NCBI GenBank assembly: GCA_021324075.1
Contig: JAJPJW010000079.1
Coordinates: 1 to 40,236 of the forward strand
DNA length: 40,236 bases
From: Pseudomonadota bacterium
GTDB taxonomy: Bacteria; Oederibacteriota; Muellerivitia; Muellerivitales; Muellerivitaceae
Reading direction: 5' to 3'
The position numbers and the translations under genes are program-made. Every line of letters starts with the position of its first letter. Within the stretch, counting starts at the first letter, position 1. A model generated the notes under the pieces. It saw nothing but the letters and a program-made list of their open reading frames with translations. It made no database searches and had not been told where the DNA came from. Shown here piece after piece: positions 13,090 to 21,227 of this stretch.

Positions 13090-16000
13090 TCAATGAAGGA
13101 GGATAACCTTGCCGGTCCGAATCTCCTGGGCGGAGCCTTCCCCGATTTGCAGGACATAGACATAGAGCCCGCTGGCGGCGGCCGAACCGTTGTTGTTTTG
13201 AAGGTTCCACAGCAACGTATTCAACCCCTGGCTTCCCTCGATTTGGGTGCTGTAAACCTGTTCCCCGCTCAAGGAGAAGAGTTTCACTTGGATGGAGCCC
13301 GGCTGGTCCAGGTTCACCAGGAAACGGACGGGCTGCCCGCCCGCGGAGAGGTTGGGAACGGCCACAACTTGGAATGTCCCATCCCGCGGCACGGACGACG
13401 GACTGGGGGTGACGGTGGGTGTGGCCGTAATCGTAGCCGTGGACGAGAAAAGTTCCGAAGTAACCCGCAACGGACGGGCGCTTCCCGGCGGCGGCGTGGG
13501 GGTCGGGGTCAAGGTGGGCGGTGGGGTCGGGGGGGCGTACCAATCGTCGTTGAAGGTTTGTTGGTCGTTCCATCCGTCGAATATCCATACCTGGTTGTTA
13601 AAGACCAGCCCGGTGATGGCGCTGCGCACGCCGAAGGGCGCGGCATAGGTGGAAACCGTCCAATTCGTCCCGTCCGGTGAATGGTAGACGTCGTTGTAGT
13701 AGGTATAGTCCGAGTTCGACTGGGCCCAGCCCCCGGCGACGACCAATTGGCCGTTATAGGACAGGCAGGCCATCTGGGTCCGAGCCGGCCAATAGGGGGT
13801 GGTGGACTGCGTCCAGTTCACCCCGTCGCTGGAGCTCCAAACATCGTTGAAGGTAGTACCGAAGCCGTCTTCCCCCCCGAGGACCCAAATTTTGCCGTTG
13901 AACACGGCACATCCGGGATAGGCGCGGGCGGCGAAGGGTGCGGTAGCCGTCGCCTCGGTCCAACTCGCCCCGTCGGAAGAACTCCAGACGTCCCCCAGGG
14001 CGGTCTCGCTGCTGTCATAGCCGCCGATGATCCAGATCTTGTTGTTGAAAACCACACAGCCTTGGCCGCTGCGGGCGGTCCAGGGCATGGTACCGGAGGT
14101 CTGGGTCCAGGTGACACCGTCCGAGGAGGACCAGACATCGTTGGAGGCCGAATAATTGACTTCATTCCCGCCCCCGATCACCCAAAGCTTGCTGTTGAAG
14201 GCCACCGCCCCCATGCTGTCGCGGGCCGAAAAGGCGGCTGAGGCCGTTGCTTCGGTCCAACTCGTTCCGTTGGTGGAATACCAGACGTCGTTGGTGTCCT
14301 CGAACTGGTTGGCGTTGAAATCGTAATTGTAGCCGCCGATCATCCACATTTTTCCGCCAAGGGTCACGGCCCCGTAATTCACCCTCTGTCCGAAATTGGT
14401 GTCTTTCGAAGCCCGGGTCCATTCCGAATACAGGTCGTTGGAGGGCGTAAAGGTGCTGGTGGGAGTTGAGGTGGGTGTCTTGGTGGGCGTGCTGGTCTTG
14501 GTGGAGGTCGCGGTCTTAGTGGGTGTACCGGTCTTGGTTGAGGTGGGAGTTTTGGTGAAGGTTTGGGTGATGGTGGCCGTGGGCGTGAGGGTGGCGGTCA
14601 AAGTAGGCGTTGATGAGGGTGAAGCCGTGGCGGTAAAGGTGGGTGTTGGAGTAGGCGTACTCGTCGTCGTATACGTCGCCGTGGGGCTGGGCGTGAAGGT
14701 GGCGGTAGACGTTGGAGTATTCGTGGTCGTAGAAGTAGAAGTATAAGTCGGGCTATTCGTGGGCGTTGGTGAAGGCGTATCCGTCGGGGTGGAAGTCGGG
14801 GTTAAGGTCGCTGTCAGGCTGGGCGTGGAAGTAGCCGTGGAAGTGGGGGTATCGGTGGCCGAGGAGGTGACCGTATTTGTGGAGGTAAAAGAAGGCGTAT
14901 TCGTTGGGGAGGACGTGGGCGTGAAGTTGTTGACGAGTAGTCCCCATAGCGAAAAATGGTTAACAACCGCGGTCAGGAGGTGGTTCGACGTGTCTACTGT
15001 CGCGGGAACAGTGTTCCAATTCGTCCCATCGTAGTATTCCACCTGCAACTGATTGGCCGTCTCGCCTGAAGGTATCTGGCTTGGGTCGTAGGGGAAAACA
15101 AGCGTTACCGTACTGCTCCCGAAATTACTGATGGGGCCGCCCGGCCCCATCGCATTGAAAGTGTAAAGGTTCCCTAAAACCGAATAGCCGCCTGGTGGCG
15201 TCGCGGCCGAGGGGCTAAATTCGCTAACCGTCACCGTTGTCCCCTGGTCCAGGACATTCGGGCCAATTTCCACGCCGGTTCCGTTTGGCAACGAGACATC
15301 CACTCCGTTAGTCCCCACGGTGGCTTGGGCGGTGGGCAGGGCGGTGGGGGTGTTGGTAAAGGAAGGCGTAAAGGTCGGAGTATTGGTGTTGGTGGATGTC
15401 GGGGTAAGGGTGGGCGTGGGGGTGAAGGTGAAAGTCGAAGTCGGCGTATAGGTGGGGCTCAAAGGTTGGGTGAAATACCAAACGCCGTCGGCGCCGATAA
15501 GCCAAAGGGTCGTCGTCGTGGCGGCCAGGGGGCCTACATCGGGAGCGTCCGAATTGACCTTGCTCCAATTGGCCCCATCCATTGAATTCCAAATCGAGGG
15601 GTTAGCGACACCGCAATTGTCGCAATCATCCAATGGAACAATGGCGCCGGTCATCATCCACTCGGTGTTGTTGTAGGTGACCGGTGGTTCCGTGAACAAA
15701 GGTTGGCCGGAAGCGATGACATCCGCGCCGGGCATGGTCGTGGCGGCTTCCGTCCAACTGGTGCCGTTTGAGGTTGCCCATATATCCGTGAGCTGGGTTC
15801 CTCCGTTGAATGACCCGTTAAATGCGTTCCCCCCCATGATGAACATTTGATTGTTGAATGGATAGAGGTTCGCCCCCACCCGCGCGGGCCAAGGGGCGAC
15901 CGTGAGGGAACCAGGCAGATTCGCTCCGTTGGGGAACAGCAAAACCCTGTTTCCACCCCCAAATGCGCCTCCTGCCAACATCACATTGAAGCCAAAACCG

Positions 16001-17991
16001 TTGACCGCCACTTGGCCCAAATCATTATTCGCGGAACTGTTAAGATCAAACGCAGTATTGGCCCAAGCTGATCCATCGATTGAATTCCACAACTCGTACC
16101 AAAAACCGCCTTGCGTATCGCCCTTATCAAGGAAAACCCACATCTTGTCATTGAAAAGAAAAACATCATCAATCTCGGCGGTAACTATGGTTCCCCCAAA
16201 AGTTACTGAGTTTGTGCCGTAAAAACCTGGAAATGACGTCACTAGAGACCAATTGGCCCCGTCACTAGAAGACTTGATACTAACGTCGTTGTCCTCTCCC
16301 AAGTGGTATCCCTCTGCCGAAAAAACATAAACCTTATCATGGTAACCCAATACGAAAGGATCACCATTGCCAACAGGTGGCGTGGGTCCCGCGAAACACC
16401 AGCCGTTTGAACAGGTTGGGGTTGGAGTGATGGTTGGAGTATCGGTGATCGTTGAGGTTGGCGTTAACGTCGGGGTTGGGGATGGCCCGACAATGGAAAT
16501 GGCATAGTGACCGTCCCATCCCGGCGTGTAGTTGTACCAAGTAGAAGGGCCGGATGATAAGGACAATGTCGCGGGCATGGCAGGATTGGCATCGAGTGTC
16601 ACTGCGGAGGCGATGGCGGGGTTGGCAGAACTCGAAGGTGTCGGGGCTATGTAAATGCTGACTCCTTGCCCTGTGATGCTGATGGGACAGGTGGCAAGTC
16701 CACTTGGAACAATAAAGGAGCCTTCCCAGTCGGGTAATTCATCTCTCGAAAAAGCTTCCCAAGCCCCACTAGCCGTAACTGCGCTTAACCCGTTACCCAC
16801 TACCACCTGTAAATTCTGTCGAGTGTCTATGGATTCATTCGTAAAAATATCAATAACTGCTGTCGTACCGGCATTTAAAGTTTCATCAAGAACAGTGATA
16901 GGAGTTCGGGAATCCGGCTGGTCACTGAAAACGATGTGTTGAATGGTTTTTACCATTGCGCCTTCCGCCGGTGAATCGTCCCACTGGAATGAATATCTCA
17001 AATTTTGGTCCGAGGAACTGTCATCCTGGAAAACATCAACAGCTCGCACCACAGGCGGATTCACTGCGTAGTAATAATTGAGTATTCCCTGATAGTTCCA
17101 GCCCGGCGTGGATTGGGCCAGATTATTTGCTCCGTCTTGGCTTAAGCCTAAACCACCTACAGTTACAATGCCCTGGCCGACATCATCGGTATCGCGACGT
17201 TTTAAATATGCAGGGAAATTCCATTTGCTTGGATCTGCGTTATAAAAAATCTCATCGTTCGAGTTACCATCAAAGCCATTTCCATATCCCGCAATAATTA
17301 CTTGATCCGAGCCAGTTACAGCCCCGCTTTCAGAAATTCCGCTGTTAGTGCGGTCGAAAGAGTAAATGGCCTGGCCAGCGGTTAAAGTAGTCGCTTGTCC
17401 CGCGATCCCATCGTTGCCTTCGTCGTCGCCATCCCAGCCAGCAAGCGATGGCACATAAGAAATAAAAACTTGGTCGTCAGTATTTCCGATGGTGTCATAG
17501 TTATATACCTGTCCGCTAGTCGCAGTGACAGGCACTTCCGCTTTGTATGGAACGGCGAATCCGACTGCGTATGACCTAGCCGCCACCGCCTCAGTTTTGA
17601 AGACCTCTAATTGATTCCAAGTGGGAAAAGTCTCAGCCCGCACTACGCCTTTAACATAGGTTTCAAAGGGCATCTGTAGAATCACTGTAACAGGCGGCCC
17701 CCCTGGAGACGGCGCTCCGTTAATTGTAAGAGCCTGCATTTGAGTCACAAGAACATCCATGTCTGGATAAATAAGTGAAACGCCGGAGCTGTTCCCATAT
17801 GTGTTTTTGATAAGGTCAGAAACCGGATAAGAATTTGTATCGGTATTAAATTTAAAGTTGGCGGGGTCTACAACACCTACTGTGATAGATGTGGGCAAAG
17901 AAAAAGGCGATGAGTTCGCTTGGGAAAAAGCAACCGAAGTCACGGACAAAACAAAAAACAGAAGAAAATAAAATCTTAGTTTTTGATCCAT
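13090..17991 (-). CDS. Giant secreted protein: SpoIID-like domain, kelch-like repeats, TPT linkers, FlgD-like C-terminus
   Basis: 1633 residues with a signal peptide (hydrophobic FYFLLFFVLSVTSVAFS). Residues ~35-310 form a SpoIID-like domain with MPFETYVKGVVRAETFP (conserved Glu) and KTEAVAARSYAVG; the later GHGVG-type motif reads VGGLGLSQDGA, lacking the His. A Thr/Pro linker (~501-527) leads to kelch-like units (~530-840) with forms such as WSLVTSFPGFYG and NNTEWMMTG. After a second linker (~845-895) comes a ZU5-like or autotransport-like beta domain (~900-1015) ending VNHFSLWGLLV. A long Thr/Pro/Ser stretch (~1018-1187) precedes five or six WxIGG kelch units (~1190-1500). The FlgD-like end (~1535-1633) has GLYVYVLQIGEG and a final GKVILLH. 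The start overlaps the propeller gene by 16 bp. An extracellular or cell-surface role is likely; peptidoglycan binding or cleavage by the SpoIID part is inference. Confidence 0.85.
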   Translation of the reverse strand: MDQKLRFYFLLFFVLSVTSVAFSQANSSPFSLPTSITVGVVDPANFKFNTDTNSYPVSDLIKNTYGNSSGVSLIYPDMDVLVTQMQALTINGAPSPGGPPVTVILQMPFETYVKGVVRAETFPTWNQLEVFKTEAVAARSYAVGFAVPYKAEVPVTATSGQVYNYDTIGNTDDQVFISYVPSLAGWDGDDEGNDGIAGQATTLTAGQAIYSFDRTNSGISESGAVTGSDQVIIAGYGNGFDGNSNDEIFYNADPSKWNFPAYLKRRDTDDVGQGIVTVGGLGLSQDGANNLAQSTPGWNYQGILNYYYAVNPPVVRAVDVFQDDSSSDQNLRYSFQWDDSPAEGAMVKTIQHIVFSDQPDSRTPITVLDETLNAGTTAVIDIFTNESIDTRQNLQVVVGNGLSAVTASGAWEAFSRDELPDWEGSFIVPSGLATCPISITGQGVSIYIAPTPSSSANPAIASAVTLDANPAMPATLSLSSGPSTWYNYTPGWDGHYAISIVGPSPTPTLTPTSTITDTPTITPTPTCSNGWCFAGPTPPVGNGDPFVLGYHDKVYVFSAEGYHLGEDNDVSIKSSSDGANWSLVTSFPGFYGTNSVTFGGTIVTAEIDDVFLFNDKMWVFLDKGDTQGGFWYELWNSIDGSAWANTAFDLNSSANNDLGQVAVNGFGFNVMLAGGAFGGGNRVLLFPNGANLPGSLTVAPWPARVGANLYPFNNQMFIMGGNAFNGSFNGGTQLTDIWATSNGTSWTEAATTMPGADVIASGQPLFTEPPVTYNNTEWMMTGAIVPLDDCDNCGVANPSIWNSMDGANWSKVNSDAPDVGPLAATTTTLWLIGADGVWYFTQPLSPTYTPTSTFTFTPTPTLTPTSTNTNTPTFTPSFTNTPTALPTAQATVGTNGVDVSLPNGTGVEIGPNVLDQGTTVTVSEFSPSAATPPGGYSVLGNLYTFNAMGPGGPISNFGSSTVTLVFPYDPSQIPSGETANQLQVEYYDGTNWNTVPATVDTSNHLLTAVVNHFSLWGLLVNNFTPTSSPTNTPSFTSTNTVTSSATDTPTSTATSTPSLTATLTPTSTPTDTPSPTPTNSPTYTSTSTTTNTPTSTATFTPSPTATYTTTSTPTPTPTFTATASPSSTPTLTATLTPTATITQTFTKTPTSTKTGTPTKTATSTKTSTPTKTPTSTPTSTFTPSNDLYSEWTRASKDTNFGQRVNYGAVTLGGKMWMIGGYNYDFNANQFEDTNDVWYSTNGTSWTEATASAAFSARDSMGAVAFNSKLWVIGGGNEVNYSASNDVWSSSDGVTWTQTSGTMPWTARSGQGCVVFNNKIWIIGGYDSSETALGDVWSSSDGASWTEATATAPFAARAYPGCAVFNGKIWVLGGEDGFGTTFNDVWSSSDGVNWTQSTTPYWPARTQMACLSYNGQLVVAGGWAQSNSDYTYYNDVYHSPDGTNWTVSTYAAPFGVRSAITGLVFNNQVWIFDGWNDQQTFNDDWYAPPTPPPTLTPTPTPPPGSARPLRVTSELFSSTATITATPTVTPSPSSVPRDGTFQVVAVPNLSAGGQPVRFLVNLDQPGSIQVKLFSLSGEQVYSTQIEGSQGLNTLLWNLQNNNGSAAASGLYVYVLQIGEGSAQEIRTGKVILLH
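14430..14935. repeat. Low-complexity (Thr/Pro/Ser codon) tandem repeat DNA
   Basis: About 500 bases of degenerate short repeats of the form GTNGGNGT on the plus strand, encoding the longest Thr/Pro/Ser linker of the giant protein. Shorter versions lie near 15310-15460 and 16425-16490. On the plus strand this gives spurious Val/Gly-rich open frames. The repetitive DNA could change length by slippage. Confidence 0.8.
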
Positions 17992-19049
17992 TGGAAAATA
18001 TGCAGCCCTTCTTCAGATGCCCACATTTGAAAAATATTTCCATGAATGTCGATCGCCAATTCGTTACCGTCAATCCGTTTGTCAAAAACATCTAAATCAA
18101 CAGGGATTTCAACAAGTTTTTGACCAGCAGGGGTATAAAGCATTACCGAGGCTTTGTTAAATGGGTCTTCATAAAAATTTCCAGAAAAATATTTGCACAA
18201 AAAATAAGAATTGCCGCTGTCATCAATACCGATTAGATCGGTCCACCCTAAACCTTTATCGCCTTCAATTTTTATTTGAATTTTATCTCGATCAATATGA
18301 CCGCCTATTTTCTTTAAATGTTCATTGATTTTTTTCGAATAAATAATAAAAGAATTGAAGCCCGTTCTACCAAAATCAAGTTTTGCGGGTTTGAATCTGG
18401 ATTTGGGCCGGGAAAACAATTTCGGAGGAAGTTTTTCCGGTTTATCACCATTGTCTCTTATAGTCATAGCTTGGTCGTTGACATCATAAACAACGCCATT
18501 TTCCTCATGCCCAAGATTGAAATTTTTATAGTCAACTTGGGTCCCATCAGGCTTTATGAGGAAAAAACCAACCGAACTATCCTTCCTGTGATAGGGGGCA
18601 TAAATGGATCCATCGCCATCAACCTGCCATAAGCCGCCTACATTTTCGCCGTCAATTTTTTTTACCGCCCCGTTGGATGAAAGAACGTAAATTTGATTTG
18701 TCTGTCCCCAAAAATAGATATTTCCGTTGCCATCGATTCTTAAATATCTCGGCCAGCTAATTGACGTTGTCTCTACCGTCTCAACCTCTTTGTTCGTTCC
18801 TTTTTCAACCTTCGCATGACGCTCTTGAATCTTACTCAGCTTTACTTCGTTTTCTCCAGCACCCCATTTGAAAAAACCAACTTCCTTTTTGGTGAAGCTA
18901 ATCGGTGCATCCGATTGGGCAAATATGACCGGTGGGGAGAAGGTGAGGAAAGATGCGATGAAAAGCAAAAAGCAAAAAGAGAAGTCAACCCAGCTCTTTC
19001 TACTTTTCCACAATCCGCATCCGAAACGGGTGTTGTTCTCTTGTCTCAT
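17976..19049 (-). CDS. Secreted propeller-like protein, cassette copy 1
   Basis: 357 residues. ATG 19049 was chosen because GGGGAGGATGGG lies directly before it; an upstream in-frame ATG at 19085 lacks such a site. A signal peptide (VDFSFCFLLFIASFLTF, cleavage after FAQ) is followed by SDAPISFTKKEVGFFKWG. The mature chain has recurring G-N-G-N-I-Y-F / D-G-S-I-Y / D-x-G-N-S-Y-F units, typical of NHL- or six-bladed propeller blades, and ends DIHGNIFQMWASEEGLHIFQ, WIKN. I do not recognise a named family. The homologue at 19648-20706 shares signal peptide, N-terminus and C-terminus. Its stop codon lies inside the start of the SpoIID giant (16-bp overlap), so the two products are probably made together. 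The region is clearly AT-richer than the flanking polysaccharide genes. Confidence 0.85.
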   Translation of the reverse strand: MRQENNTRFGCGLWKSRKSWVDFSFCFLLFIASFLTFSPPVIFAQSDAPISFTKKEVGFFKWGAGENEVKLSKIQERHAKVEKGTNKEVETVETTSISWPRYLRIDGNGNIYFWGQTNQIYVLSSNGAVKKIDGENVGGLWQVDGDGSIYAPYHRKDSSVGFFLIKPDGTQVDYKNFNLGHEENGVVYDVNDQAMTIRDNGDKPEKLPPKLFSRPKSRFKPAKLDFGRTGFNSFIIYSKKINEHLKKIGGHIDRDKIQIKIEGDKGLGWTDLIGIDDSGNSYFLCKYFSGNFYEDPFNKASVMLYTPAGQKLVEIPVDLDVFDKRIDGNELAIDIHGNIFQMWASEEGLHIFQWIKN

Positions 19050-19070
19050 CCCATCCTCCCCTTGCTTCCC

Positions 19071-19215
19071 CCACTTTTTGACCAATCCTTGTCTCGTTGC
19101 CCGACCATCCTATCCTGCGTTTCAGGTTATGCCTAGAAAATTTGGCGTTAATGAACCGTGGTTTTTAAAAGATACTGGTGATACTGTAATGCCCGATAAA
19201 TTTTGGGAGGCTCTT
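19071..19215. repeat. Duplicated upstream/divergent promoter region, copy A
   Basis: This stretch matches 20731-20876 at an offset of 1661 bases. Bases 19115-19174 are identical to 20776-20835 (60 of 60). It contains a GGTT..GCC/GGC..AACC nested inverted repeat (19125-19156 approx.) and a direct repeat GATACTG-GT-GATACTG. Downstream on the plus strand it keeps GGGAGG but has lost the ATG seen in copy B, so no gene follows. It must contain the promoter of the minus-strand propeller gene. Confidence 0.8.
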
Positions 19216-19234
19216 GAACAAAGGGGTCAGGCTG

Positions 19235-19663
19235 TCATTTGACACGAGAAAAACCATAAGGGATTTGCTCGCCGGCAGCAAAACACCTAGCGGCGACCGC
19301 CTCGGCTTTGGAAGCTTCTGTAAGTGCTGAATCTAACTCGGTTCTAACAACCCCTTGAATGTAAGTTTCAAAAGGCATTTGAACGAAAATTTCAGGTTCA
19401 CTACTTGGGTTGCTTATTAATTCATCATAAAGATCAGAGACAGGTTCCGAAGGATAGATGAGAGAAATTCCTTCAACAGACACGCTCTCATTCAATAGAT
19501 CGATAATTGGAATATGCCCAGCCGAATTGGCAGAAACACTCGCACTATCTACAACGTCAACCGCAATAGTTCCGGGAGGCAATGGGATTGATTGGGCATC
19601 AGCGATCGAAAATATACCCCAGCCCAAAAACAGGATAAGTAAAGTTTTTAATTTTTGGCCCAT
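19235..19663 (-). pseudogene. Truncated SpoIID-domain protein, cassette copy 2
   Basis: 142 residues with a signal peptide (LKTLLILFLGWGIFSIADA) followed by IAVDVVDSASV, LIYPSEPVSDLYDEL, VQMPFETYIQGVVRTELDS and KAEAVAARCFAAGEQIPYG. It matches the first ~150 residues of the 1633-residue giant, including the conserved Glu-containing segment. It stops at 19235 where the duplicated promoter region begins, so the second half of the SpoIID domain, including the GxGxSQ motif, is missing. It is probably a stub created by the duplication breakpoint rather than a complete enzyme, although it is open, has a start overlapping the upstream gene by 16 bp, and could still be expressed. Confidence 0.75.
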
Positions 19664-20706
19664 TTATAAATATGTATCCCGTCTTGAAATGCCACCATTT
19701 CAAAAATGTTTCCATGAATATCGATATCAGTGGGGCCGCATTGACCATCGAAATAATTTTTCTCGATTGGAACTTCGGCCAGCTTTAGGCTTCTTGAGGA
19801 ATAAATGGCCACATAAGCGGCTTTACAAGGTGTATAAATTGCTGTTGATTCATGAGTGCAGATTTTAAAATAAAAATTTTCATCATCATCAACTCCCATG
19901 AAGTTTTGATCGTTATTAAATCCGAGTTTTATTTGGACTTTTTCATTATCAATTCTTTTATTTATTTTCTCTAAATGTTTATTGATTTTTGCGGTGTCAA
20001 AAGTAAAAGTTCCAGTCACAAAATCTTTTTCAAAGTCGGCTTCCGTTTGGTTTGAAGTTAACTTCGGAAATAGAAGCGGCGGTTTTTTCTCAGGCGTATT
20101 ATTGTTATTAAATATCGTTACAGCCCTGTCACCTTTTTCTTTTTTTTCATATGCAATGCCGTTTTCTACGTGTCCAAGATCGAAATCCGCGTAATTTTCT
20201 TGTGTTCCATCTGGCCTTGTGAGAATAAAACCAAGCGGTTCCCCCTTTTTGTGAAAAAATGAATACACATTGCCCATTTCGTCCACCGTAGAAAAACCAC
20301 CAGTCTTTTCAATACTGATTGTTTTGATCGAGTTCCCATCCGGCGAAACGACAAAGATAAATCCATTTCCACCGTTGAAATATAGGTTGTCATTGCCGTC
20401 CATTCTGAAAGTATTCGCCCATCTATATTGGTTCAAAACCGTTTTTTCCGGCTTCGAATTTTTTTTCGCTCTTTGACTAATACCACCTGTGCTCAATTTC
20501 ACCTCTGTTTCACTTGTTCCCCATTTGAAAAATGCAATTTCTTCTTTGGTGAAACTAATTGGTGCGTCCGATTGGGCGAATATAATCGATGGAAAAATAG
20601 CAAGAAAAGATGCGATGAAAAACAAAAAACAAAATGAGAAGTCAAACCTCCACTTTCCACTTTTTCCCCATCCCAATCCAAAACGTTTTTTGTTCTCTCG
20701 CGCCAT
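19648..20706 (-). CDS. Secreted propeller-like protein, cassette copy 2
   Basis: 352 residues from ATG 20706, preceded by GGAGGATGAA. A further in-frame ATG at 20769 lacks a ribosome site. The signal peptide (FDFSFCFLFFIASFLAIF, then IIFAQ) and following SDAPISFTKEEIAFFKWG closely match copy 1. The middle has diverged strongly, but blade-like units remain (RMDGNDNLYFNGG, VDEMGNVYSFF, VDDDENFYFKI), as does the C-terminus DIHGNIFEMVAFQDGIHIYK, WAKN. It is followed by the SpoIID stub with the same 16-bp overlap as copy 1. Two Cys residues near residues ~285 and ~295 are not in copy 1. Function is unknown; extracytoplasmic location is well supported. Confidence 0.85.
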   Translation of the reverse strand: MARENKKRFGLGWGKSGKWRFDFSFCFLFFIASFLAIFPSIIFAQSDAPISFTKEEIAFFKWGTSETEVKLSTGGISQRAKKNSKPEKTVLNQYRWANTFRMDGNDNLYFNGGNGFIFVVSPDGNSIKTISIEKTGGFSTVDEMGNVYSFFHKKGEPLGFILTRPDGTQENYADFDLGHVENGIAYEKKEKGDRAVTIFNNNNTPEKKPPLLFPKLTSNQTEADFEKDFVTGTFTFDTAKINKHLEKINKRIDNEKVQIKLGFNNDQNFMGVDDDENFYFKICTHESTAIYTPCKAAYVAIYSSRSLKLAEVPIEKNYFDGQCGPTDIDIHGNIFEMVAFQDGIHIYKWAKN

Positions 20707-20730
20707 TTCATCCTCCACTAGCTTCTTCCT

Positions 20731-20876
20731 ATGTTTCTTTTGACCAATCGTTGTCCTTCGCCCGACCATCCTATTCTGCGTTTCAGGTTATGCCTAGAAA
20801 ATTTGGCGTTAATGAACCGTGGTTTTTAAAAGATAGTGGTGATAGTGTAATGTTCGATAAAACTTGGGAGGTTCTT
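20731..20876. promoter_or_regulatory. Divergent upstream region, copy B, with conserved 60-nt core
   Basis: It lies between the minus-strand propeller gene (start 20706) and the plus-strand small gene (start 20877), so it must serve both. It repeats 19071-19215 almost base for base, with an identical core at 20776-20835. A TTGACC hexamer at 20740-20745 is shared by both copies but has no well-spaced -10. The direct repeat here reads GATAGTG-GT-GATAGTG. The conserved hairpin could act as operator DNA or as RNA in the leader of the small gene. Confidence 0.6.
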
Positions 20877-21227
20877 ATGAGGTTGTCAGCTTTTTCCATG
20901 GTTTTGGCCGTTTCCTTGGCTTCAAGCTTTCCCCTCGAAGCCGCCCCTTCTTCTACGGTTCAAAGCGCCACCCCCTTGGTTCACCAATTCAACACCCGTT
21001 TGAAAAATCAATTGATGCTGATCCAGGCGGGGCTTAAGTCCGGCAAACTGACCAACGACCAGGCCGCCGCCTTGAGGACCTCTCTGGCATCCGCCCGCCA
21101 ACAAGAAATAGCTTTCTTCCAGCAGAACGGAAGCAACAACTTAACGACGGCCCAGCAGGCCAAGTTGAACGTCCTGTTGAACCAAAATTCCGCCACTCTT
21201 AATGAGCCCGCTTCTGCGGTCAAATAG
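20877..21227 (+). CDS. Small secreted helical protein
   Basis: 116 residues from ATG 20877 with GGGAGG five bases upstream. A signal peptide (RLSAFSMVLAVSLASSFPLEA) precedes a mature chain of about 90 residues: LKNQLMLIQAGLKSGKLTND, QAAALRTSL, ARQQEIAFFQQNG, and LTTAQQAKLNVLLNQNSATL. The pattern 'QxxI..G..SGxLTxxEAxxL' with a second LTxxQ turn is one I recall from small periplasmic helical-hairpin proteins of unknown function. It is the only plus-strand gene in the central region. It starts from the conserved divergent region and ends at a strong terminator, so it forms a single-gene transcript. The duplicated copy A upstream region lacks its counterpart. Confidence 0.8.
   Translation: MRLSAFSMVLAVSLASSFPLEAAPSSTVQSATPLVHQFNTRLKNQLMLIQAGLKSGKLTNDQAAALRTSLASARQQEIAFFQQNGSNNLTTAQQAKLNVLLNQNSATLNEPASAVK

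Follow-up and report, generated by a model that had tools for sequence, protein, structure and literature searches.

Why should a 60-nt non-coding stretch be kept letter for letter in front of two genes whose products have drifted far apart? The window analyzed here (40,236 nt) is the entire contig C46 of a draft genome of 3.57 Mb in 228 contigs. On its minus strand lie, in order, R-P2-S2' and R-P1-S1, in which each copy of a repeat, R, precedes the gene for a secreted protein of ∼355 aa (P), followed by that for a SpoIID-domain protein (S) (Table 1). The initial annotation had reported that the 60-nt stretch is present identically in both cassettes, and alignment bore out the exact match (60/60 bases), which is maximal, with mismatches flanking it at 19114 and 19175. 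Around this tract the annotation had estimated ∼90% identity over ∼140 bases; we measured 93% over 117 nt, or 91% over 131 nt. The R copies differ at 8 positions which, if placed at random, would leave a run of at least 60 identical bases in about 2% of trials. The GC content of the region holding the P genes and the S N-termini (17800–21000) is 35–47%, and that of the modules 36–45%, compared with 57% for the window.

Table 1. Features of the duplicated region (window coordinates)
Feature	Position	Strand	Basis or remark
60-nt tract, copy 1	19115..19174	.	direct comparison with 20776–20835
60-nt tract, copy 2	20776..20835	.	direct comparison
Repeat R, copy 1	19099..19215	.	upstream of P1; 93% over 117 nt
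Repeat R, copy 2	20760..20876	.	most of the divergent intergenic DNA between gene X (+) and P2 (-)
P1, secreted protein, 357 aa	17976..19049	-	followed by S1
P2, secreted protein, 352 aa, 47% identical to P1	19648..20706	-	followed by S2'
S1, 1633 aa: SpoIID domain, Thr/Pro-rich linkers, kelch repeats, weak CHU_C/FlgD-like C-terminus	13090..17991	-	Pfam
S2', N-terminal 142 aa of an S protein, cut within the SpoIID domain	19235..19663	-	Pfam
Gene X, small protein with signal peptide, divergent from P2	20877..21227	+	ribosome-binding site TTGGGAGG within R
P1 leader motif	19076..19113	-	conserved in all 3 cassettes, c2 with a 1-nt gap; candidate operator/leader
Candidate P1 promoter TAGGCA-17-TAGGAT	19107..19135	-	inference, by eye
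Junction S2' / R copy 1	19216..19250	.	19-nt near-match to sequence abutting IS3-type ends, C168/C151

The coding neighbors of R are strongly diverged, as the annotation had judged by eye. P1 and P2 share 47% of their amino acids, with a proportion of synonymous differences (pS) of 0.67 overall and 0.87 in codons 40–80, which lie only 130–250 nt downstream of the tract; the S1 and S2' N-termini share 39–41% (pS 0.69). Given saturation at synonymous sites and a dN/dS of about 0.25–0.33 for the diverged P/S copies, this divergence is old and has accumulated mostly under purifying selection, and R (93%; 100% in the tract) is far too alike for its surroundings. The same values refute the simple form of a recent tandem duplication whose genes then diverged very fast under positive selection; its tandem order and truncated S2' would suit a duplication junction, but we give this explanation almost no credence, the genes being old paralogues. 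The annotation had coupled a very recent duplication with an element occurring nowhere else, and here the two part company: the full element does occur nowhere else, but a simple recent duplication is excluded. Its description of P as a propeller protein could not be established, as Pfam returned only a sub-threshold SBBP repeat and the AlphaFold model, built from two sequences (pLDDT 42), was too poor for use.

The search of the genome and its relatives proposed in the annotation found the full element in the two window copies only. There was no occurrence in the rest of the genome, in 44 other genomes of the phylum, in wider relatives or in viruses, phages and plasmids; these searches may omit near-identical records, hence other strains of the species could be unseen, and with the same proviso no second strain was found. 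P is absent from the same-genus genomes, and the genome_contigs scan gave no confirmed P relatives. Weak DNA matches in relatives (for example L024 and G001) were inspected and judged to be chance, and an apparent paralogue on contig C214 was spurious, lying within a ribosomal-protein operon. R matched no viral, phage or plasmid sequence that would point to such an origin. R was considered as a transposon terminus and rejected, as it is found at P loci only. The AAAGGGGTCAGGCT..ATTTGACA pattern suggested a REP/RAYT remnant; this too was rejected, the genome having no Y1_Tnp gene, the pattern being absent from relatives and from genome_contigs, and the junction 25-mer likewise being absent from genome_contigs.

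A third locus of the family, P3-S3, lies on contig C164 with the same domain order, and a comparison of the three upstream regions (c1 and c2 in the window, c3 on C164) yields a mosaic. The c3 region matches the R region at 78% over 67 nt, mainly in the P leader, and contains little of the 60-nt core. Along the informative sites, 27 consecutive positions in R group c1 with c2, the following sites (leader to about codon 20) mostly group c1 with c3, and c1 then again groups with c2. Copy 1 is thus a mosaic, its tract and body resembling copy 2 while its 5' leader and first ∼20 codons resemble C164. In a permutation test the maximal descent of 13 was reached in 0/20,000 permutations (p<5e-5). S1 and S3 behave similarly: codons 1–480 are 18–32% identical in amino acids, codons ∼600–1000 mostly 74–94% with low dS (0.15–0.76), and beyond codon 1047 dS is again mostly saturated (CUSUM 0/5000), although neither this test nor that on c1/c2/c3 fully separates recombination from rate differences. 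Codons 600–1000 have only a weak match (∼25%) to their counterpart in the related genus G005, and recency therefore explains this patch better than constraint does. Both R and the S1/S3 patch are therefore sharp blocks of identity between paralogues amid saturated surroundings, and in both comparisons relationships conflict along the alignment beyond chance, as expected of recombination tracts. P and S types are linked: P1 and P2 go with S1 and S2', and P3 and S3 are of the type seen in the G005 pair. At a position that is Trp in S1, S3 has an in-frame TAG (L082:5208-5210, G000:C164), which splits it into frames of 728 and 994 aa and reflects either a nonsense mutation or an error in sequencing.

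The upstream end of R gives a further indication of its age. Homology of copy 1 stops at 19215, exactly at the position matching the start codon of gene X in copy 2, and copy 1 keeps the gene X ribosome-binding site though it lacks gene X itself, which argues that R copy 1 is recent. The arrangement of X and P-S is old, since the same order, with X and P-S diverging, is found in G005; the syntenic intergenic DNA of G005 is not alignable with R and lacks the element. Gene X belongs to a multi-copy family of small exported proteins in this bacterial family, with 12 matches in G001 and no Pfam assignment.

On balance, we favor the view that the 60-mer is the core of a divergent promoter region (X / P-S) in tandem modules, kept or again made alike by recombination at a time when the bodies of P and S had long been distinct. 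The tract is present twice because the complete operon R-P1-S1 is preceded in tandem by another divergent module, R-P2-S2'. DNA would then have been exchanged at the R flank, either by gene conversion or by a crossover joining two divergent alleles with a common R; the partners would be copies or strain alleles recombining at flanks that still match. Like exchange may have occurred elsewhere in the family, between c1 and c3 in the 5' leader and between S1 and S3 in the S linker. The outcome would be a hypervariable cassette of P and the SpoIID N-terminus between homogenized flanks, the 60-mer marking where one such flank is most alike, over the presumed divergent promoter. Of the three candidates put forward in the annotation (shared operator, structured leader RNA, site of gene conversion), the last, taken as conversion or recombination, is the best supported, as three separate homogenized tracts are present among three cassette copies. 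Several points weigh against it: there are only three copies, all from one strain; a quicker change of the c2 leader could mimic part of the mosaic; the 60-mer alone would be a short conversion tract, with 83% identity left on one side; and the peak of identity sits on the presumed promoter, whose core may be strongly constrained.

The last point leads to the main rival, constraint alone, whereby R would be a promoter/operator common to both cassettes and served by one regulator, with purifying selection having fixed the 60 positions. R is placed between divergent genes, its identical core is flanked by two weak candidate promoters identified by eye, and the adjacent leader is common to all three cassettes. 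A direct repeat of 9-nt period (19171–19186 and 20832–20847) is altered alike in both units (GATACTG..GATACTG versus GATAGTG..GATAGTG), as paired binding sites might change in step. However, 60 fixed positions out of 60 exceed the normal need of a promoter; c1 and c2 are only about 73% alike in the leader, which is functional too; c3 has little of the core, and neither another genomic site nor the syntenic G005 region has it. Constraint alone also does not explain why copy 1 retains its gene-X-side end, nor the leader patch that c1 shares with c3, and we regard it as unlikely to be the whole cause, while promoter constraint probably helps to keep R alike under the recombination reading.

If an operator is sought, the leader at 19076–19113, as the best-conserved sequence of the three copies, is a better candidate than the 60-mer. 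It is conserved although identity among the downstream proteins falls to as little as 22%, and a scan of the window with the motif returned one zero-mismatch match where 0 were expected. The candidate P1 promoter agrees with the consensus at 8/12 positions, which is below the scanner threshold, and is absent from the scanner output. The shared operator of the annotation is compatible with these findings as a candidate, but the best three-copy conservation belongs to the adjacent leader, and neither the G005 locus nor any other genome searched has the element. Recurrence upstream of other genes in the genome, as in a regulon, was not seen beyond the two window copies and the partial C164 match, and the 60-mer does not in itself constitute evidence of a new regulatory element. 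More generally, what looks like ultraconserved non-coding DNA between paralogues that have diverged can be the footprint of recombination.

A structured leader RNA or riboswitch was the remaining candidate. The nested inverted repeat can be read in the sequence as annotated, and the plus strand of the 60-mer folds somewhat better than its shuffles (z -1.8; 10/200 shuffles). The fold is weak, however, with z -0.5 on the minus strand and z of about 0 to +1.6 in longer stretches (about +1 for the minus strand, which holds the P leader). An Rfam search of the tract gave no match, c3 is without the inverted repeat, and the copies offer no variation for covariation. With neither a known family nor a fold signal in longer windows, we consider such an RNA very improbable. 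The annotation rightly held that the stretch is not conserved as protein: every plus-frame codon touched by a difference is changed (P/S, T/S, T/S, P/F, F/T and A/V). A 37-aa plus-strand frame was dismissed, as all of its altered codons are non-synonymous and Pfam returned nothing.

Conserved 5' ends with divergent bodies are also a feature of the sap genes of Campylobacter fetus. Multiple surface-protein copies with recombinants are likewise found among the sap genes (PMC4943207). The present locus differs in having no recognized invertible promoter element or S-layer function. The locus is somewhat like the rhs/CDI orphan modules in the features described in Koskiniemi et al. 2014 (PMC3967940), where a displaced variable-module fragment lies in tandem beside a full-length gene and common sequence is usable for homologous recombination. 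Compared with that description, the variable part is here 5' (P and the SpoIID domain), the orphan has its own promoter region and no toxin/immunity pair was recognized. Mosaic tracts between paralogous cassettes for secreted or surface proteins also recall the silent cassettes and segmental gene conversion of Borrelia vls, as outlined in PMC2632889 and PMC11499132; vls is there an array of ∼90% identical cassettes, whereas one orphan and two full loci are present here, and with P/S bodies only 22–47% identical, conversion would be confined to the flanks. We do not claim membership of the rhs or vls type. In horizontal regulatory transfer, in which intergenic regions pass between alleles (for example PMC5890482 and PMC9944727), upstream non-coding DNA is likewise exchanged separately from the gene; here the exchange would be between copies inside one genome. 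The locus points to a modular, fast-diverging pair of secreted P and SpoIID-kelch genes in a little-studied lineage. We tentatively raise the possibility that P and the SpoIID N-terminal segment form a cartridge that can be exchanged within a diversity-generating surface system. R/leader and the S linker would then serve as recombination arms, and R-P2-S2' would be a stored orphan that could be swapped into the expressed operon; any benefit of such swapping is hypothetical.

Finally, the tandem order could be an assembly artefact in which alleles of two strains were joined. The assembly is a draft, the tract length is near common k-mer sizes, and S2' breaks off abruptly at a junction where a 19-mer resembles an IS end. 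Against this, 8 differences separate the R copies, the junction falls beyond the identical tract, estimated contamination is low (1.4%), and a separate contig (C164) also gives the mosaic pattern; we consider an artefact improbable. The near-match at the junction, with an E-value of about 0.2 that is not significant alone, may mark how S2' came to be cut. Contigs C168 and C151 of this genome (G000) both begin in one IS3-type right end (first ∼107 bases), and their flanks share AAGGGGCCAGGC, which is like window positions 19216–19234.
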